From the IMG/VR virus record IMGVR_UViG_3300015360_000182, positions 1 through 25,242 of that record: DNA of 25,242 bases. One strand, 5' to 3'. This DNA comes from a virus. The notes under the pieces are model-generated. The model was not told the origin of the DNA. It was given only the letters and a program-made list of their open reading frames with translations, and made no database searches. The position numbers and the translations under genes were made by a program. Every line of letters begins with the position of its first letter. Position 1 is the first letter of the stretch. Of this stretch, positions 2,059 through 24,168 are shown piece by piece.

Positions 2059-2079
2059 GAACGGAGATAATTTATCAAC

Positions 2080-2447
2080 GGCGGCGAGAAAACCCCTACT
2101 TTTCTCTGAACGAGAAAAGTTTGCCCTGTAGGGAGCGAGCGACCAAACAGGGCAAACCTCTTTAGGGTAGTGGGATGAGAGCCGCCATAGTAGAAATTGC
2201 CTACAACCTAACGCTGATCTAATCTGGTTTCCGCTTGCCCAATTAGAAACCCAGGAAAATGGGATAAAATTCAGCTTTTGTTTTAGAAAAATTGTTTAAC
2301 GCAACTATATTAAGACTAAGAACTCTCGGAACGAGGGGGTAGCCGATTGCCCTGATGTAAGACCCATAAAATTTGGGCTATTGGTTGGATCGGAAGCCCC
2401 GACCTCTTTAGGGTCGGGGTAGTTGACTGTGTCAGTAACATTAAATT
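2080..2447 (+). ncRNA. Large structured RNA resembling a TnpB omegaRNA / IS605-type right end, without tnpB
   Basis: This gene-free stretch is much more GC-rich and structured than its surroundings. GGCGGC (2080-2085) pairs with GCCGCC (2181-2186) and encloses CCCCTAC/GTAG-GGG (2093-2099 with 2167-2174), a hairpin 2099-2119 (8-bp stem) and a hairpin 2120-2156 (10-bp stem). A second half (2208-2427) contains TCTAAT/ATTAGA, CTGGTTT/AAACCCAG and a block TAGCCGATTGCCCTGATG (from 2340). It ends in GGAAGCC, an 8-bp hairpin CCCCGACC/GGTCGGGG with a CTTTAG-containing loop, and TAGTTGAC at 2420-2427. GGAAGCC-stem-CTTTAG-stem-GGTAGTTxAC is, from memory, the hallmark 3' end of TnpB guide RNAs; in that family the bases after it (here from 2428, TGTGTCAGTAACATTAAATT) act as guide. 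No TnpB reading frame or remnant is visible. The block recurs at 15313-15384. The assignment is by motif recall; a different structured RNA remains possible. Confidence 0.6.
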
Positions 2448-4806: not shown

Positions 4807-5435
4807 TGCGTGCCCTTAAAAAATGCTACGAGGGAAGCTCGAACATGATCTCCAGCATCAGCATCAACTCTATTAATACTATGCCACAGTCCAGCTTTTG
4901 TTAAAACAAGTCTATTTGGTTTACAAGTAATATAATTTCCACTTCCGTAATAAGATAAAAATGTATCTTCTTCACGATGATCCAAATGAGGAGGAGGAAT
5001 AGTATTGCAAGGTGGAGTTTTAGCCAAAAGAAGCTCTCCTCCCCATGTTGACGCCCATTCTGGATGAATATAGTAAATTCCAGCACCAAGATAACCAGTG
5101 TCATTATGCCAAGATAATTTTGTACCTCTTGGATACAGATAAGATCTCATGCTTATTTTGAGCCATTCTGGGACTACAGAAGGATGTTTTTTTGCAATTT
5201 CAGAAAACATCTTATATATAAAGTCCATATAATTATTGTAAGGTGCATTTGAAGAATCATATTCTATTCCTCCCATGCAATTTCCGTCACTTAATCTCCA
5301 TACTTTTGACCAACTTCCAATATGAGGAATGACAAACTTTTCCTGTTGAACAGCAATCCACACAGCACGGAATTGTTCTTGACTTAAAACTTCATCATAA
5401 ACAACACAATCATCAGTTTCTTGAACTTTTATCAT
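4803..5435 (-). CDS. 2-oxoglutarate/Fe(II)-dependent oxygenase (prolyl-hydroxylase-like)
   Basis: This is a 210-residue protein with the full 2OG-Fe(II) motif set: H110-x-D112 (SWHND), distal H185 (GLWHSINRV) and the 2-oxoglutarate-binding arginine R199 (HVRASLVAFF). LKISMRSYLYPRGTKL and GGELLLA are the flanking strands of the jelly roll. Such enzymes hydroxylate protein side chains, sugars or nucleobases, and T4-like cyanophages carry many of them. Its position between a sulfotransferase-like gene and a glycosyltransferase gene suggests a shared modification pathway, for example making a hydroxyl that is then glycosylated. That is inference. It overlaps the upstream gene by 23 bp and the downstream gene by 4 bp. 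Confidence 0.85.
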   Translation of the reverse strand: MIKVQETDDCVVYDEVLSQEQFRAVWIAVQQEKFVIPHIGSWSKVWRLSDGNCMGGIEYDSSNAPYNNYMDFIYKMFSEIAKKHPSVVPEWLKISMRSYLYPRGTKLSWHNDTGYLGAGIYYIHPEWASTWGGELLLAKTPPCNTIPPPHLDHREEDTFLSYYGSGNYITCKPNRLVLTKAGLWHSINRVDADAGDHVRASLVAFFKGTQ

Positions 5436-6032: not shown

Positions 6033-6052
6033 AAATATATAATTTTTGGAGA
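6033..6052 (+). promoter_or_regulatory. Late-promoter-like TATATAAT and ribosome site before the portal gene
   Basis: AAATATATAATTTTTGGAG lies in the short gap between the divergent sulfotransferase and portal genes. TATATAAT resembles the T4 late-promoter -10 box (TATAAATA). GGAG at 6048-6051 sits 6 nt before the ATG at 6058 and decides the portal start over an in-frame TTG at 6046. Confidence 0.5.
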
Positions 6053-6057
6053 TAGTA

Positions 6058-8535
6058 ATGCCTTGGTTCGATTTTTATAAACTTTGGACATATCAATTTG
6101 AAAAAGGACCATTAGAAAAATTAGACAATAAAAATCTAACTGGTGCTGGAGTCGTCGTGCCGGACGCAATGCCAGACCTTCGTAACGATGCTTATGGAGA
6201 TTCTAGATCCCAACTACAGCTACACGATAGCAATGATTTTATTGATCTATCAACCGTTTCAAATCGTCCACAAAGATATAAGGAATATGAAAGATTACGA
6301 AGTATTCCAGAAATTGAAAACGCTATGACCGTAATTAGCGATGAAGCTTGCATACATAGCACAACAAAAATTTCAACATTATTTGATGGATTAAAAACAA
6401 TAAAATGGCTCAAAATGAAATGGGATCAAAATCCAAGCCCATTTCTTGTTTATTGTTGGGATTTTCAAAAAGAAGATTATGCTCTTGGATGGGCTTATGA
6501 TCCTAGAATTATTAAAATCGCAAAAACTGTCAAGGTTTTGCTTGATGATGGAAATATACTACAAGTGACTCCAGACCACAGAATATTAAAAAGAGATCAA
6601 ACTTGGATAGAAGCAGGAGATCTAAAAAAAGGCGATGAACTTATGCCTTTTTATCGACTAAGTCCAAATAAAGAACTTAATAAACTTAAAGTGGGACAAT
6701 TTCCAAGAATATTCACCTTTGACGGATGGAAACATGAAAGACAATTTATTGATGAATGGAAAGGAGAAGGAGAGAAATACGAAATTATAAATAAAGCAGT
6801 AAGAACTATCTGTTCTGGAGTCTCTGTTAAAAAACTTCGGAGCGTTACAAAACATCCGTATGAAAGCGTTAAAGTTTGGCTTGAAAAAGAAGGATACCAA
6901 CCAAAAGAATTAAGATGGTTGAGCAAAATGAAAGATAGACGAAAGGTTTTGGCCGTTTTTGAAAGTGAAGAATCTGAAGTTTATGATCTTAGCGTAAAAG
7001 AACATGAAAACTTTTGTACAGAAAATTTAGTTGTTCATAATTGTCAAAAAAATGATAATGGAAATGTTTTTAACATATATACAGATAATGATGAAATAAA
7101 AAAAGAATTAGAATTTTTATGTTTCAATAGAAAAATGCTAAATTTTAATAGAAAAGCTTGGTCAATAATGAAAAAATTATGTATTTTTGGAGATAGTTTT
7201 CAAGAACTAATAACAGACCAAAAAGAACCAAAAAATGGAATTTTAAAAATACAAGAACTACCACCAGATAGTATGTACAAAATTGTTACGACAAAAGGAA
7301 GAATTGTAGAATATCAACAAAGTAGAGATGGTCCAGATTATCAAGCACTCACAAGAAGTAGCTTAAAATCCGCAACTGATGAAGATCTTATGCAAAGTAA
7401 CGCAATAAGATTTTCGGTAAATCAAGTTGTTCATATGTTTCTAGGAGAAGATAGAAAAACATTCTTCCCATATGGACAAAGTTTAATAGAACCAGCACGA
7501 GGACCAGCACATCAATTGCGTTTAATGGAAGATGCAATGATGGTTTATAGACTTTCTAGAGCGCCAGAACGAAGAATTTTTTATATTGATACAGGACAAT
7601 TACCTGGCGCAAAAGCTGAAGGGTTTGTGGAAAGAATGAAAGATCAGTTTCGCAAAAAGAAAGTTTCTTCAAATAAAGGAAATGGAGCAAGTGGAGTAGA
7701 AGAAAGATGGGTTGCCCCTGCGGCAGATGAAGATTATTGGGTTCCAATAAGACCGAATTCTAACACTCGTATAGAGACGCTTCCTGGAGCTGTTTCGTTG
7801 TCTGAAATAGATGATGCGTTATATTTTAGAAATAAATTATACACTGCACTTCAATTTCCCAAAAATTATTTAAATAGTGAAGATGTAGGAGCAACTAGAA
7901 TAACACTTTCTTCTCAAGATGCCAGATTTGCCAGAATGATAGAAAGAATTCAATCTTCTGCAGAAGATGGATTTTTAGAAATATGCGAACGGCATTTGGA
8001 AATGAGAGGCTTTCCTTCTGATTCTTATGAAGATTTGAGAATAGAAATGACTCCTCCTTCTGCATGGAAAGAACTTAGTGAAGCAGAAATTGTTAATAAT
8101 AGAATAAACACAATAACTTCATTAAAGGGCAGTATGATAATGAGCGATTTTGATCTTCTTACAAAGTATATGAAATTTTCAGAAGATGAAGCAAAAAAAC
8201 TAATTGCTAGAAATAAGATTCAAAAATTGGAAGATCTTAAAATTCAGGTTATTGGCCAAAATCCACAACTTATGGGAATTGGAATTCCAGCCGCAGATTC
8301 AAACGAGCCTGAAATGGGGGCAGAACTTGGCGGTCCGGTGGCAAACATTGGAGAAGAACCTCCACAAGAAAATGAAGAACAATCATCCTCAGAAGAAATG
8401 CCAAAAACTCAATCTGAATCATTGCCGGAACTTCCAGATCCAAAAGAAGAAGACATTAAAAAATATAATTTGGAAATAGAAGATTATAGCAATACTATAG
8501 ATAGTGAAGATATTGACTGGAGTGAGGAAAATTAA
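6058..8535 (+). CDS. 20: Portal vertex protein (T4 gp20-like) interrupted by an intein
   Basis: The dodecameric portal forms the DNA gate at one capsid vertex. The precursor is 825 residues: N-extein 1-97, intein 98-328, C-extein 329-825 (about 594 residues of mature portal against 524 in T4). Portal signals are the N-terminal FYKLWTYQFEK, YERLRSIPEIENAMTVISDEA, the wing region WSIMKKLCIFGDSF, the clip/stem region HQLRLMEDAMMVYRLSRAPERRIFYID (a classic T4-type portal motif), FVERMKDQFRKKK and LYTALQFPKNYLNSE. The C-terminus is long and acidic (Glu/Pro-rich, from about residue 755). The start at 6058 has GGAG at 6 nt. The TAA overlaps the next ATG (TAATG). Position before the internal protein, protease, scaffold and capsid genes matches T4 order. 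Confidence 0.9.
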   Translation: MPWFDFYKLWTYQFEKGPLEKLDNKNLTGAGVVVPDAMPDLRNDAYGDSRSQLQLHDSNDFIDLSTVSNRPQRYKEYERLRSIPEIENAMTVISDEACIHSTTKISTLFDGLKTIKWLKMKWDQNPSPFLVYCWDFQKEDYALGWAYDPRIIKIAKTVKVLLDDGNILQVTPDHRILKRDQTWIEAGDLKKGDELMPFYRLSPNKELNKLKVGQFPRIFTFDGWKHERQFIDEWKGEGEKYEIINKAVRTICSGVSVKKLRSVTKHPYESVKVWLEKEGYQPKELRWLSKMKDRRKVLAVFESEESEVYDLSVKEHENFCTENLVVHNCQKNDNGNVFNIYTDNDEIKKELEFLCFNRKMLNFNRKAWSIMKKLCIFGDSFQELITDQKEPKNGILKIQELPPDSMYKIVTTKGRIVEYQQSRDGPDYQALTRSSLKSATDEDLMQSNAIRFSVNQVVHMFLGEDRKTFFPYGQSLIEPARGPAHQLRLMEDAMMVYRLSRAPERRIFYIDTGQLPGAKAEGFVERMKDQFRKKKVSSNKGNGASGVEERWVAPAADEDYWVPIRPNSNTRIETLPGAVSLSEIDDALYFRNKLYTALQFPKNYLNSEDVGATRITLSSQDARFARMIERIQSSAEDGFLEICERHLEMRGFPSDSYEDLRIEMTPPSAWKELSEAEIVNNRINTITSLKGSMIMSDFDLLTKYMKFSEDEAKKLIARNKIQKLEDLKIQVIGQNPQLMGIGIPAADSNEPEMGAELGGPVANIGEEPPQENEEQSSSEEMPKTQSESLPELPDPKEEDIKKYNLEIEDYSNTIDSEDIDWSEEN
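6349..7041 (+). other. Intein in the portal protein, 231 residues, no LAGLIDADG or HNH nuclease
   Basis: The intein begins at Cys98 (TGC at 6349, block A CIHSTTKISTL). Block B is GNILQVTPDHRIL with the T-x-x-H motif, block F is VYDLSVKEHENFCTENL, and block G is VVHN followed by Cys+1 (TGT at 7042). Excision joins ...VISDEA to CQKNDNGNVF.... All residues needed for standard class 1 splicing (C1, block-B T/H, penultimate H, terminal N, +1 C) are present, so it should splice. About 90 residues sit between blocks B and F. They contain a helical, basic stretch (AVRTICSGVSVKKL...HPYESVKVWLEKEGY) that could be a helix-turn-helix, perhaps left from a lost homing endonuclease or a DNA-binding domain. 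Confidence 0.9.
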
Positions 8536-10267: not shown

Positions 10268-12070
10268 ATGAAAAGAAAGTTAGTGGATTTTGATACTTTT
10301 CAAAAAATCAAACAAGAATCTTTTATCAATACCCAAAAAGAACTCGAAGCAGCAGCCCCACTGCTTGCAGAATCACTAGATCTTGAAAATTTAACTTTAG
10401 AATCATACACAAATGATGAAGTTTTATTTGAATCATTAGATGGAGATTTTGTTCATGCAAAATATGATATTTCCAATGGATATGTCAAATTTGAAGATGT
10501 TGAACAACTAGTTCTAAATGAAGAAAGTGAAATTGCTGAATCTAAAGAACTTTTGTCAAAAATGATTGATTATCTTGTGGAAAATAATGAAACTAAAGCG
10601 GAAAATCTTTTTTCAGAATATATGGATCTTCCAAGAACAAAGCGTGTTATTAGCGAAGAATATAAGCTTCGTAGCGTTCCAATTCGTAAGAAAGTTGGCG
10701 GAAAAACAAAAATTGTAGGATATCGCAAAGCTCGTTGGAATGTTACTTCAAAAAAGCATGAAAAACCAAGCTCAACCATAAAACGCATGCGTAGTAAAAA
10801 AATCAATAATCGCAAAATGCCTGCTGGTCTGAAACTATTTCTCAAGGCAAAAAGAGACAGAGTCAATAAAAGTATCGGCAAAAACATGAAAGAATGGAGT
10901 GTGATTGCTGAAAATGTACTTAATTTTGTTGATCTCCAGACAAATGGACCAGAAGTTAACAATATTAAAACTTTAAGGAGAGAAGGTGAAGTTGTTGCTG
11001 TAAAAGTTCCAACAATAGCACTTAGAAACGAAGCTAGAGTTCTTAAATTTGATTGGAAGACAATGAATACCGATGTCGTTATTAAGAGAAACAACGCCAA
11101 GAAACTTCATGAAAACAAAAATTTTATTAAGACTGTTAGTGAACTTCGACATCTTAATGCAATTTCAAACACATCAGAATTTGAAGCTAAAATGGAAAAT
11201 GCCGTTATCAATTTCTCAGATGTGCTTTATCTAACAGAATCAGAACTTAAGAACATTATGGCTAATGCTCTAGAAAATTCAGGATCGAAAAATTTCGATG
11301 ATGAAACTTGTTCATTTCTTGCAGAAGGTTTACTAAGAACTGCTCATGATACATTTGTTGATCGTGTTGCAAAAATTGTAAGACAATCTGGCGGGAGACT
11401 TAACGAGAGAGCCGAGGATAAATATGCTAATTTCTGTGTTATTGCCAATGATTTTTATAGTAAACTTGATGAATCCGCACTTCTTGAAATGCAGGCATTC
11501 GTTGATGTTTATGAAGCTCTAAGACAAGTTCATAAACTAGCAAAAGAAGAAGGCAATGAAAGCGTAGCTAACGAAACCGCAAGTTATCTTGATGACCTAC
11601 TTCCAATCATATCTGGCGTCGAACAGCAGAATCTTGATGTTTTAAATGATTCTGCAGAGTGGCTTGATACAGTTGTTGAAGCAACATCAGATGAAATGTC
11701 CGCAGATCCAGTTGTTAACTATTGTGGCGAACATCCAGATCTTGCAAAGAAAGCGAAAATGTCACAGTCCCCTTCGGAAATGCAGGGCTCGACACCAGAT
11801 TTTCAACCAACAAGTTCAGGAAAAGGAGCAGATGCTTCTGATGCTAAAGAACTTGGAGACGAAGGTTGGGGAAACATTGGAGGAGATGGCGTTTATCCAG
11901 AACTTGATAATCCTTACTGCCTCAAATCTGATGCTCGAAAAATAGTTGGAGAAAAAGACATTGATTCAGATAGTGATCAACTCGCTCATTGGGGCGATGA
12001 TGACACTTGGCCAAACTTAAAAAACACATACTCAAAAGACTCGGTAACTCCAAAGTCTGTAAAGGAATGA
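10268..12070 (+). CDS. Prohead core protein, 600 residues (gp68 position)
   Basis: It starts with AGGAG 5 nt upstream of the ATG. I recognise no enzyme motif. Acidic, helical N- and C-terminal parts enclose a very basic middle (about 130-205, many K/R, e.g. IRKKVGGKTKIVGYRKARW, TIKRMRSKKINNRKM), fitting a scaffold/core protein that contacts DNA or the shell. Numerous L/I-x-E triplets (LLAE, LVLNEE, VISEE, FLAE) could be prohead-protease sites. The last 90 residues are low-complexity, Asp/Gly/Ser-rich. T4 has core protein gp68 (141 residues) between gp67 and gp21; this one is four times longer. It runs into the protease gene with one base between TGA and ATG. Confidence 0.6.
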   Translation: MKRKLVDFDTFQKIKQESFINTQKELEAAAPLLAESLDLENLTLESYTNDEVLFESLDGDFVHAKYDISNGYVKFEDVEQLVLNEESEIAESKELLSKMIDYLVENNETKAENLFSEYMDLPRTKRVISEEYKLRSVPIRKKVGGKTKIVGYRKARWNVTSKKHEKPSSTIKRMRSKKINNRKMPAGLKLFLKAKRDRVNKSIGKNMKEWSVIAENVLNFVDLQTNGPEVNNIKTLRREGEVVAVKVPTIALRNEARVLKFDWKTMNTDVVIKRNNAKKLHENKNFIKTVSELRHLNAISNTSEFEAKMENAVINFSDVLYLTESELKNIMANALENSGSKNFDDETCSFLAEGLLRTAHDTFVDRVAKIVRQSGGRLNERAEDKYANFCVIANDFYSKLDESALLEMQAFVDVYEALRQVHKLAKEEGNESVANETASYLDDLLPIISGVEQQNLDVLNDSAEWLDTVVEATSDEMSADPVVNYCGEHPDLAKKAKMSQSPSEMQGSTPDFQPTSSGKGADASDAKELGDEGWGNIGGDGVYPELDNPYCLKSDARKIVGEKDIDSDSDQLAHWGDDDTWPNLKNTYSKDSVTPKSVKE

Positions 12071-15164: not shown

Positions 15165-15207
15165 TAATAAGTTTTACACCGCAATTTGCGGCACAAAACG
15201 AACAAAA

Positions 15208-15239
15208 ACCCTCTGGTCGCAAGACCAGAGGGTTTTTTT
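15208..15239 (+). terminator. Rho-independent terminator after the capsid gene
   Basis: An 11-bp perfect stem ACCCTCTGGTC/GACCAGAGGGT with a GCAA tetraloop is followed by seven T. It closes the head transcription unit about 45 bp after the capsid stop. A smaller dyad CCGCAA-T-TTGCGG lies just upstream (15179-15191). Confidence 0.92.
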
Positions 15240-15291
15240 GTTGATACGGAAAAAAATTTCTCATTTGTAGCTAATTAGTCGCAAATGTATG

Positions 15292-15385
15292 AATATGATG
15301 TTAAATTTACTATGAACTACCGTTAGCTAAAGACGGCGTGGCTTCCAACCAACAGTCTTATATCAGGACAATCGGCTATCCCTCT
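15292..15385 (-). ncRNA. Second, shorter TnpB-omegaRNA-like element with a guide matching the neighbouring fucosyltransferase gene
   Basis: Read on the minus strand from 15384, this begins GAGGGATAGCCGATTGTCCT and GATATAAGAC, 25 of 28 bases as in the structured RNA near 2336-2363. It then has TTGGTTGGAAGCC, a weak stem with CTTTAG in the loop (GCCGT-CTTTAG-CTA-ACGGT), and ends GGTAGTTCA at 15321-15313. This is the same 3' architecture as the element at 2080-2427, minus one internal hairpin. The 5' half seen in the first copy is absent or too diverged, so it may be truncated. The following 21 bases (15312-15292) would be the guide; they match the minus strand of the fucosyltransferase gene 20/21, next to TTCA. 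No tnpB is present. Confidence 0.6.
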
Positions 15386-15465
15386 ATTAATATTGTATCA
15401 GACATATTTTCGTTAAGTAATAGCAAAATATGAATTTTAATTATACTATATTACAAAGTAAAAAT

Positions 15466-16299
15466 ATGATAACTTTTTCGAATATTGGGTATAAGGGCAG
15501 ATTAGGAAATCAAATGTTTCAATTTGCCTCAACTTTGGGAATTGGTAGAAAATGTAAATATGATGTTAAATTTCCTATGAATTCAAAAAAAATAAATAAG
15601 AATTTTGCTGACGGCATAAAGCGTCTAGCTTGGTTCGAATTGCCAGATATTTTTCAAATAAATTCAGAATTGCTAATCGAAAATGTACCACACACATTAA
15701 ATCGTTTTCGTGAGCCACATTTTCATTTCGATAAAAATGTGTTTTCTACTATGCGAGACAACGCTGATCTATTTGGTTATTTTCAAAGTGAAAAATATTT
15801 TAAGGAATCTGAGGCTGAAGTTAGAAGTAATTTTACATTCAAATCGAATATTATTAAGTATGCAAGAAAACATATGCCTAATACATCTAATGAAACAGTT
15901 GCAATTCATATTAGGGGAGGTGATTTTTTAAAATTAAAAACTTTCCAAGTATGCTCGCAAAAATATTATAATTCGGCCATATCTAAATATTTTGTTGATA
16001 AAAAATACCATTTTCTCATATTTTCAGATGATCATAAATATGCAAGAAAATTATTTAATACATATGATAATGTTACATATATCAGTACGAATAACGCATA
16101 TGTAGAAATGTGCATGATGTCTTTGTGTAATCACAATATAATTCCAAATAGTACATTTGGTTGGTGGTCCGCATGGTTAAACATAAATAAAAATAATAAA
16201 ATTATTATGCCGTCTAAATGGTTTAATAGTGAGTCTAAATATAATTTTAGAGATGTGCATTGTAAAGATTGGATTGTAATGGATTGTAATGGATTGTAA
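15466..16299 (+). CDS. Glycosyltransferase family 11 (alpha-1,2-fucosyltransferase-like)
   Basis: This is a 277-residue protein from the ATG at 15466. An in-frame ATG at 15430 would add 12 residues, but family members typically start MITFxxxGxLGNQMFQ, so 15466 is preferred; neither has a ribosome site. GT11 motifs are GRLGNQMFQFAS (11-22), HIRGGDF (148-154, donor GDP-fucose binding, HxRxxD), FSDD (187-190) and NSTFGWWSAWL (228-238). The probable reaction is transfer of fucose from GDP-fucose to galactose in an alpha-1,2 linkage. It is followed by methyltransferases, a usual glycan-tailoring combination. Codon use is extremely AT-rich compared with the capsid gene directly upstream, which suggests separate acquisition. 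Confidence 0.88.
   Translation: MITFSNIGYKGRLGNQMFQFASTLGIGRKCKYDVKFPMNSKKINKNFADGIKRLAWFELPDIFQINSELLIENVPHTLNRFREPHFHFDKNVFSTMRDNADLFGYFQSEKYFKESEAEVRSNFTFKSNIIKYARKHMPNTSNETVAIHIRGGDFLKLKTFQVCSQKYYNSAISKYFVDKKYHFLIFSDDHKYARKLFNTYDNVTYISTNNAYVEMCMMSLCNHNIIPNSTFGWWSAWLNINKNNKIIMPSKWFNSESKYNFRDVHCKDWIVMDCNGL
15557..15581 (-). other. Predicted target of the omegaRNA-like guide, inside the fucosyltransferase gene
   Basis: On the minus strand this reads TTCA then TAGGAAATTTAACATCATAT, ending T at 15557. The element at 15292-15316 reads TTCA then TAGTAAATTTAACATCATAT, ending T. That is 24/25 identity including the TTCA; the only difference is guide base 4 (15309 versus 15574). TTCA-type sequences are known target-adjacent motifs of some TnpB groups. 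Whether it is a functional target or a duplicated gene fragment cannot be decided here. Confidence 0.55.
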
Positions 16300-16377: not shown

Positions 16378-17016
16378 ATGTTAATGCCACTTAGTGAAAT
16401 AGTTGACAAATATGGCAAACCAAATGGAATAATTCATATTGGTGCAAATTTAATGCAAGAAAGAGGCCAGTATTTAAATTTTGGTTTAAATAACACCATA
16501 TGGGTTGAAGCGAATACCAATATTTACAATAATATTAAAAAATTAACAAATGAAAATGTGTTTAATTATGCAATATCTGATGTTGACGGTAAAATATATG
16601 AATTATATATAACTAATAATAATAGTTTATCATCTTCCATATTGAAATTAAACAAACATAAAATGCACTACCCGACAATATTTGAGACTGGTTCCATTAA
16701 GATAGAATCTAAAAGAATGGATTCATTAATAATCGAGAATAAAATCAATATATTAAATTATAACTTTTTGAATATCGATATCCAAGGTGCTGAACTATTG
16801 GCGATTAAAGGATTCGGTGATTTATTAAATAATATAAAATATATTTACACCGAAGTATACACTAATTATTTGTATGAAAATTGTGCGTTAATTGGCGAAA
16901 TCGATGAATATTTAAAAGCATTTGGATTTTTGAGAATGGAAACCAACATGACTAAATTCGAATGGGGAGAAGCCCTTTATCAACGGCGACAAGTAAGAAA
17001 TCTTCTTGAATTTTAA
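16378..17016 (+). CDS. FkbM-family SAM-dependent methyltransferase
   Basis: This is a 212-residue protein with the FkbM pattern: N-terminal IIHIGANLMQERGQYLNFG (motif I, IGAN in place of VGAN), ENVFNYAISDVDGKIYELYITNNNSLSSSIL, and ESKRMDSLI. NFLNIDIQGAELLAIKGFGDLL follows with the diagnostic D-x-Q-G-x-E, then a C-terminal EVYTNYLY and MTKFEWGEALY. FkbM enzymes O-methylate sugars, peptides or small molecules; next to a fucosyltransferase the substrate is most likely a glycan. There is no clear ribosome site. The 3' end overlaps the convergent downstream gene by 4 bp. Confidence 0.85.
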   Translation: MLMPLSEIVDKYGKPNGIIHIGANLMQERGQYLNFGLNNTIWVEANTNIYNNIKKLTNENVFNYAISDVDGKIYELYITNNNSLSSSILKLNKHKMHYPTIFETGSIKIESKRMDSLIIENKINILNYNFLNIDIQGAELLAIKGFGDLLNNIKYIYTEVYTNYLYENCALIGEIDEYLKAFGFLRMETNMTKFEWGEALYQRRQVRNLLEF

Positions 17017-18266: not shown

Positions 18267-18632
18267 ATGAAATCTTTTTGCAATTGGTTAGAATTTTACA
18301 ATCATAGTCATTTGGAAAGTCCTCAAAAACCAGTAAGGGGAATTTTCAAGATCATTCCAGATAATCAATCTTCAAGAATTTTTCATTTAAAGTTGAAAGA
18401 TTCAACTGTCAAATCAATATCGATTTACAGTAAAAATAATCATGTTTTAGAATCTATTTTTTCATTGTTGCAACAAGATTATATTTCGAATGAAGAAATA
18501 GAGATTTTAAGAAATTTTGCCAGACAAATATCAATATATGGACAAGAAATGAAAAGTGCTTCAATAGATATTATAGAATCATTGAATAAAGCAATTCATG
18601 ATGCGGTGGATAAAGACATGGAGAAATTATGA
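18267..18632 (+). CDS. Predicted capsid-packaged protein, 121 residues
   Basis: It begins MKSFCNWLEFY, the shared capsid-targeting-like motif (predicted cut near E9). The remainder has two beta strands (RGIFKIIPDNQSSRIFHLKL, TVKSISIY) and a helical C-terminal half (NEEIEILRNFARQISIYGQEMKSASIDIIESLNKAI). No known domain is recognised. Expression appears leaderless (TATATATAA 4 nt before the ATG). ATGA overlap with the next gene, which carries the same motif, shows that the two form a unit. Confidence 0.65.
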   Translation: MKSFCNWLEFYNHSHLESPQKPVRGIFKIIPDNQSSRIFHLKLKDSTVKSISIYSKNNHVLESIFSLLQQDYISNEEIEILRNFARQISIYGQEMKSASIDIIESLNKAIHDAVDKDMEKL

Positions 18633-22862: not shown

Positions 22863-23188
22863 CAAACATTTTCGTATTTGTTTCTGTATTCTTGCATTTT
22901 CATTGTTTCTATATAATTATAAAAACATCTTTCATTTGCATCTATTCTTTTCAATCCATAAACAGAAACTTTTTGCAATGCGTCCATTTGGTATTGGGTT
23001 AATTTTTCTATAAGTTTTTCTCCAAGACTTTCTCTTTTGATTATCTTGCCATCTATTAGCCTGATTATGACTTTTGGGGGCTTGTCACCCTCTATGTTGA
23101 TAACTCGGTCTAAACAGCCGTCTGCGGGGCCACCATTGAGCATAGCGTCCCATTCATAACCATATTTTTCATCTTGAGTCATATCCAT
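22859..23188 (-). CDS. Hypothetical protein, 109 residues
   Basis: The segment DAMLNGGPADGCLDRVI resembles a short NGGPADG motif I associate with many small phage and bacterial hypothetical proteins. Beta strands (PKVIIRLIDGKIIKR) and a helical C-terminus (LTQYQMDALQKVSVYGLKRIDANERCFYNYIETM) follow. It is second gene of a two-gene minus operon (10-bp overlap with the upstream gene). Its stop overlaps the convergent packaged-protein gene by 4 bp. No function assigned. Confidence 0.6.
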   Translation of the reverse strand: MDMTQDEKYGYEWDAMLNGGPADGCLDRVINIEGDKPPKVIIRLIDGKIIKRESLGEKLIEKLTQYQMDALQKVSVYGLKRIDANERCFYNYIETMKMQEYRNKYENVC

Positions 23189-23487
23189 CCTTCTACAGTT
23201 GCTTTCTTAATCTCTTCTGCAGTTACTTTTCTTCCGATTGCTTCAGATACACTATTTATAAAATCTTTTTCTATTCTCTTTTGTTCTTTAATAAGGGCTT
23301 CTGGTCCTCTATTTTTTGCTTCTAAAAATTCAATAATATCAATTTTAAAATCTAATTTTTCATTATCTACAAAAATAGCTTTTTCCATACCATCTTTTGC
23401 CTCTGTTCCAAGTGTTTTCATCATAACTTGAAATTTGTGTTTAAAGTTTCCATTTTCATCCAATGGAGGGATTTCTGTGTTAATCAT
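23179..23487 (-). CDS. Hypothetical protein, 102 residues
   Basis: This is a charged, mostly helical protein (NGNFKHKFQVMMKTLGTEAKDGMEKAIFVDNEKLDFKIDIIEFLEAKNRGPEALIKEQKRIEKDF). AAGG lies just before the ATG and a TATAAT-like sequence upstream, so this is the promoter-proximal gene of the pair. No domain recognised. Confidence 0.6.
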   Translation of the reverse strand: MINTEIPPLDENGNFKHKFQVMMKTLGTEAKDGMEKAIFVDNEKLDFKIDIIEFLEAKNRGPEALIKEQKRIEKDFINSVSEAIGRKVTAEEIKKATVEGWI

Positions 23488-23528
23488 ACCTTATTATAAT
23501 TAATTTTATTCAAAAAATACTAAATATA

Positions 23529-23627
23529 ATGAAAGATTTTAAAACCTTAAAAACAATGGAAATTACTAGAAACTTTTTAAGAAGTTTTAAAATTCATTAC
23601 ATGAGGCCAAATGACTCACATGATTAA
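23529..23627 (+). CDS. Possible 32-residue peptide upstream of the LAGLIDADG gene
   Basis: It reads MKDFKTLKTMEITRNFLRSF and then KIHYMRPNDSHD before TAA. TAAATATA directly abuts the ATG (late-promoter-like, leaderless type). The first residues are reminiscent of the packaged-protein motif. It overlaps the next start by 17 bp and could be a coupling leader, or not a gene. Confidence 0.25.
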   Translation: MKDFKTLKTMEITRNFLRSFKIHYMRPNDSHD

Positions 23628-24168
23628 TCCAAAAATAACACACGCTCAAAAGTTTCTTATTATAGGAACAATTTTGGGAGGAAGTTCTATTGTTCGACCA
23701 AAAAAAGGTAAAAATTGTTATCTTTCAATGAGAAATAAAGATATGCAGTGGCTAAAGTTTAAAAGCGAACAAATAAAAGATTTAGCATCTCCTTCTCCAA
23801 TGACTATAGAAAAAACCAATAGATGGCATTCAGTTTGCTATCCATTATTTAATGATTTTTATGCTATGTTTTATGAAAATGGAAAAAGAAAACTTAAAGA
23901 AAAAGATTTACAGCTTCTTCATGATAGTAGTATGGCAATATGGTATGGAGATTCCGGTAAATATAACGGAAAAAATATCATATTCAATACTCATATTTGG
24001 GGAGAATCTGGAACACAATTAATTAACGAATATTTTGAAAGTTTAGATTGGAGTTCTTTTGTATTTTTAGAAAGAAAAAATCACAGAATTAAACTAGATG
24101 AAAAATCCTCAGAAGAATTCATAAAAATAACTACTCAATATTTGCCAGAATACAAGAAATTCGTTTAG
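23611..24168 (+). CDS. I-SceI-like LAGLIDADG protein with both catalytic acids replaced
   Basis: This 185-residue free-standing homolog of two-motif LAGLIDADG homing endonucleases compares well by eye with I-SceI along its length. IIGTILGGSSIV stands for GLILGDAYI, then YLSMRNKDMQW and RWHSVCYPLFNDFYAMF. LLHDSSMAIWYGDSGKY stands for LAYWFMDDGGK, followed by IIFNTHIWGESGTQLINEYF. The catalytic aspartates (D44 and D145 in I-SceI) align with Gly and Ser here. The fold should still bind DNA but cleavage is doubtful. No intron or intein surrounds it. TGAGG lies 4 nt before the ATG. Confidence 0.75.
   Translation: MTHMINPKITHAQKFLIIGTILGGSSIVRPKKGKNCYLSMRNKDMQWLKFKSEQIKDLASPSPMTIEKTNRWHSVCYPLFNDFYAMFYENGKRKLKEKDLQLLHDSSMAIWYGDSGKYNGKNIIFNTHIWGESGTQLINEYFESLDWSSFVFLERKNHRIKLDEKSSEEFIKITTQYLPEYKKFV

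Follow-up and report, generated by a model that had tools for sequence, protein, structure and literature searches.

The window analysed here, a complete viral contig record of 25,242 bases (G000), is itself a fragment of a phage genome. The phage is of the T4-like type: its portal protein matches Portal_T4 and its capsid protein matches Gp23, the latter being 76% identical to its counterpart in LR756511.1, a 595-kb uncultured phage. Beyond the terminator of the major capsid gene lies an intact gene of the GT11 family, with a further in-frame ATG upstream at 15430, and between the two sit a decayed transposon right end (RE) and a stretch resembling the 5′ part of the GT11 gene (table 1). In relatives of the capsid gene, conservation past the terminator ends at about 15242 and the place holds no GT11 gene, so the cargo from 15243 onwards is lineage-specific. 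Elsewhere in the window, the T4-like portal gene (6046–8535) carries an intein-like insertion (PF14890, ORF residues 159–332), a free-standing LAGLIDADG_2 endonuclease ORF (PF03161) occupies 23611–24168, and positions 1–2058 hold an extended series of imperfect 45-nt repeats (ATVSGG..NTASG), and the ORF containing them is open at the contig start and probably represents a tail-fibre or adhesin-like head region.

Table 1. Features of the window that bear on the second element and its flanking match to the GT11 gene.
Feature	Coordinates	Strand	Basis or remark
First core-deleted IS605-type element, better preserved	2071..2426	+	ends 93–97% identical to the 175-nt G001 copy
Bidirectional terminator hairpin of the major capsid gene	15204..15237	.	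in the path of a minus-strand transcript through element and guide
Degraded second copy of GT11 5′ coding sequence, reading LI-SRKC / frameshift / YDVKFTM	15275..15316	+	alignment
'Guide', 21 nt flanking the RE tip, TAGTAAATTTAACATCATATT	15292..15312	-	20/21 identical to 15557–15577, minus strand
Decayed IS200/IS605-type RE of a TnpB-carrying element type, 5′ truncated	15313..15386	-	28-nt block and tip
Remnant of the tnpB 3′ coding end, NRGIADCPDIRLLVGSHAVFS, then TAA stop (15325–15323)	15326..15388	-	translation; reading frame shared with the first element, L001 and L090
Intact GT11 (alpha-fucosyltransferase family) gene	15466..16299	+	PF01531, E = 1.5e-23
Site within the GT11 gene matching the guide	15557..15577	-	preceded by TTCA (15581–15578), not TTAT

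The first element in the window sits downstream of a repeat-rich ORF (634–2058) and has kept both ends while losing its core: a left end (LE) that follows TTTAT and begins CAACGGCGGCGAG, the C-terminal codons of tnpB, an intact terminal hairpin and the tip GGTAGTTGA. A 175-nt copy, likewise core-deleted with both ends kept, was found at 18447–18621 of a second viral contig (IMGVR_UViG_3300020186_000392, here G001); it is near-identical to the first element (LE 97%, RE 93%), which indicates that such elements are dispersed in phage contigs. In this first family TTTAT stands before the left ends and the right ends terminate in TTCA or TTGA, and in the better-preserved relatives TTAT precedes the left end. 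The left end at 2071 opens with 13 nt, TTTATCAACGGCG, that recur within the 3′ end of an FkbM-type methyltransferase gene (16976–16988), an identity that could be either a relic or chance.

G001 also holds a second family of transposase-free, IS605-like elements (L106 and L107, at 4964–5319 and 11685–12038), whose two 356-nt copies are 97% identical, lie in opposite orientation and end in GGGTAGTTCA with the same TTCA tip. On its minus strand at 23179–23733, a truncated TnpB-like ORF with a Cas12f1-like_TNB domain and a further solo right end (23735–23815) are arranged head to head. Scanning viral contigs with a short element pattern returned nine loci, two of which hold the element: L001, in a 298-kb contig, and L090, in G001 (23.8 kb). 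The other seven were chance matches in unrelated sequence.

At the second locus, the minus strand at 15355–15382 is 89% identical to 2336–2363 across 28 nt, and a longer gapped alignment with the first element extends to the tip region (GAAGCC..CTTTAG). The sequence-only reading of this DNA was therefore right to see a diverged second copy of the 3′ part of the first element; it had further described that copy as a solo omegaRNA-like element, and here the relatives point elsewhere. The conserved motif lies in a single reading frame in L001, L090 and both window copies, and reads as the C-terminus of TnpB: the better copies, including L001 and L090/G001, translate as GVADCPDVRP..GLLVGSEAP and the copy under study as NRGIADCPDIRLLVGSHAVFS*. 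L001 keeps an N-terminal TnpB-like ORF (recognized by eye, not by a profile), and an annotated full-length TnpB of Cyanobacterium aponinum (398 aa) ends likewise, in CNIRDEGLRILSLGTSESASCPDVRP..LSVGDEAH, with a right end that carries GGGTAGTTCA. The shared C-terminus, together with the cyanobacterial match, shows the 'RNA half' to consist of the tnpB 3′ end and the right end of the transposon. In the second copy, NRGIADCPDIRLLVGSHAVFS* runs into the RE tip CGGTAGTTCA, a layout common to L001, G001 and the cyanobacterial element, and the tip GGTAGTTCA (15321–15313, minus strand) is the same as in the G001 copies and the cyanobacterial tnpB element. The tnpB 3′ coding end is thus continuous with the RE tip at 15313–15386, as in an IS200/IS605 right end. 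Judged from its sequence, this interval is a transposon end and not a stand-alone omegaRNA gene. A full-length TnpB of exactly this subfamily was not found in viral contigs, BLASTN of both elements against annotated phages and a search of bacterial genomes for the exact element pattern gave no matches, and an Rfam search of the window returned no family.

The second copy has decayed considerably. The subterminal hairpin before the tip, intact in the first element and in G001 A and G001 B, is not formed, so that 15313–15386 can be called only a decayed remnant of an IS200/IS605-type right end rather than a working one. Elsewhere the terminal stem has been kept by two-sided pairing changes (CCCCGACC/GGTCGGGG, CCCCGCCG/CGGCGGGG); in the second copy it is broken (CCACGCCG/CTAACGG) and a hairpin region has been lost between AAGAC and TTGG. 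The best remaining fold, an unrelated hairpin, does not exceed shuffled sequence in stability (z about −1.1, versus −2.1 to −2.9). No left end with a cleavage or target site was recognizable for this copy: similarity to the 5′ half of the first element was equalled by 29 of 500 shuffles, and searches against family B and L001 showed none.

The 21 nt following the tip match the fucosyltransferase gene as originally described, with the sole mismatch at guide base 4 and TTCA ahead of both copies. Coincidence, which an AT-rich region would favour, is scarcely credible as an explanation: the next best match to the guide on either strand of the window is only 15/21, which argues that the 20/21 match did not arise by chance, and the alignment in which it lies scores above all shuffles. 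For the guides of the other solo elements, nothing better than 16/20 was found in the window and related contigs.

The similarity also continues beyond the guide. Positions 15254–15316 align with 15520–15581 at a score of 60, compared with a maximum of 35 in 300 shuffles. Directly past the guide, ATTAGTCGCAAATGTA in the fragment corresponds to ATTGGTAGAAAATGTA in the gene (14/17 identical after a 2-nt indel), and this stretch tested alone gave p between about 4e-4 and 8e-4. Translated, the fragment reads LI-SRKC / frameshift / YDVKFTM against LGIGRKCKYDVKFPM in the gene, with the Arg preserved by a synonymous codon change (AGA/CGC). Similarity in coding register that runs past the guide and includes a disabling change, the 2-nt frameshift, marks the fragment as a decayed duplicate of GT11 5′ sequence; such homology was what the sequence-only reading had itself held to argue against a guide. 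Identity is uneven: in 15283–15316 approximately 32 of 33 aligned bases agree, with a single 2-nt indel, and values are much lower further left, where similarity is suggestive only (15243–15274, p 0.005–0.025). On the other side of the element, no GT11 similarity was detectable at 15387–15465, and this stretch was rejected as the left flank of a disrupted GT11 copy.

Could the match nevertheless reflect targeting? One possibility is that a TnpB- or TldR-like ribonucleoprotein, supplied by phage or host, is guided to the phage's own GT11 gene and represses or cuts it. The 20/21 match does fall exactly at the guide position, and phage-encoded TldR guide RNAs are known (PMC13418256). We nonetheless find this very unlikely, as the terminal hairpin is broken, the mismatch falls in the seed, the similarity reaches past the guide, TTCA precedes the gene site whereas TTAT (the expected TAM) precedes related elements, and no TnpB domain was detected in the contig, albeit a fragment (PF01385 and PF07282 absent). 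The earlier suggestion that the RNA silences the gene, if taken to act through TnpB, is undercut by the same points: no TnpB detected in the contig, the wrong TAM and an RNA that is not intact. The seed mismatch is itself real, and had been offered as one possible sign that the phage targets the GT11 genes of its rivals while sparing its own copy. The homologous genes contradict this proposal, to which we attach almost no credence. Viral GT11 relatives offered 62 distinct homologous sites, and guide base 4 was matched in none of them (0/62), because the position falls in a conserved Pro codon; TTCA preceded none of the sites (0/62), no site matched perfectly, and the nearest homologue differed at 4 of 21 positions. 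Near-perfect sites in the viral and genome collections were not in GT11 genes but in unrelated ones (portal-like, DnaN-like and other proteins with YDVKFxM).

A minus-strand transcript might instead act without any protein, as a putative antisense RNA that lowers GT11 translation by pairing over approximately 30 nt of the mRNA. Its predicted transcript would run from promoter-like sites near 15472–15434 to the terminator at 15237–15204. The strength of that terminator, downstream on the minus strand, and the fact that no other part of the fragment is as well conserved as the pairing region are both consistent with such an RNA, but promoter-like matches occur at the shuffled rate (three found, 3.4 expected), the arrangement is seen in no relative and a recent duplication accounts for the match without any function. 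An antisense role for the shared 20–30 nt is thus unlikely. We likewise doubt strongly that the right end captured a piece of the phage glycosyltransferase gene whose putative minus-strand RNA now serves as an antisense or RNA-guided repressor of that gene.

We consider it highly probable that at this locus a dead IS605-type end, core-deleted and PATE-like, is joined to a scrap of the GT11 gene, and that the guide match reflects shared ancestry rather than targeting. The identification of a tnpB 3′ end and an RE tip, the frameshifted similarity past the guide, the loss of the terminal hairpin, the missing TAM and the lack of targets elsewhere all point in this direction. An IS200/IS605-type element with tnpB would have lost its core to give a PATE-like, terminal-only derivative, and one such end is left facing the capsid gene, with a decayed duplicate of the GT11 5′ coding part directly beyond its tip. 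Guides of this transposon family consist, by their construction, of the DNA flanking the right end; the flank here is a piece of the GT11 copy, which would explain why the guide matches the gene. The right end may have met the scrap by inserting into a paralogue, or the two may have recombined at the TTCA common to the RE tip and the gene; these routes would look alike since both partners carry TTCA. Of the earlier suggestion of a relic of an element inserted in a paralogue, the relic is upheld by the homology past the guide; the far side of the element, where no GT11 trace was detected, lends no support to a simple paralogue insertion. Some observations fit the relic less well: the uneven identity of the fragment is not predicted by uniform neutral decay, the left end of the second element is gone, and none of 80 capsid-gene relatives shows the ancestral layout, in which an intact GT11 gene would follow the capsid gene.

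The elements resemble the PATEs of Haloquadratum, terminal-only, core-deleted derivatives of IS605-type transposons (PMC3119063), in being short and transposase-free, with IS605-like ends, near-terminal palindromes, no target duplication and an origin by core deletion. They differ in residing in phage contigs, and the second copy also lacks a left end and palindrome. As in the reRNA/omegaRNA of ISDra2, where the RNA-coding region comprises the 3′ end of tnpB and the RE (PMC8612924), flanking DNA occupies the guide position. TTAT (left) and TTCA (right) are among the more frequent IS200/IS605 cleavage motifs (PMC9956272). Unlike ISDra2-type elements, the second copy has no tnpB gene, its terminal hairpin has decayed and the matched site lacks a TTAT-type TAM. 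TldR guides are found alongside a tldR gene and serve to repress a homologue in the host (PMC13418256); the element at 15313–15386 shares with them a phage-borne, TnpB-type guide RNA region adjoining a gene, although neither a tldR gene nor repression of a host homologue was seen for it.

Core-deleted IS605-type elements are thus recorded in two phage-like contigs, the present one, with its capsid protein related to that of a 595-kb phage, and one other. A decayed IS605-type end beside a duplicated gene scrap can mimic a self-targeting guide RNA, a trap for scans that look for solo omegaRNAs.
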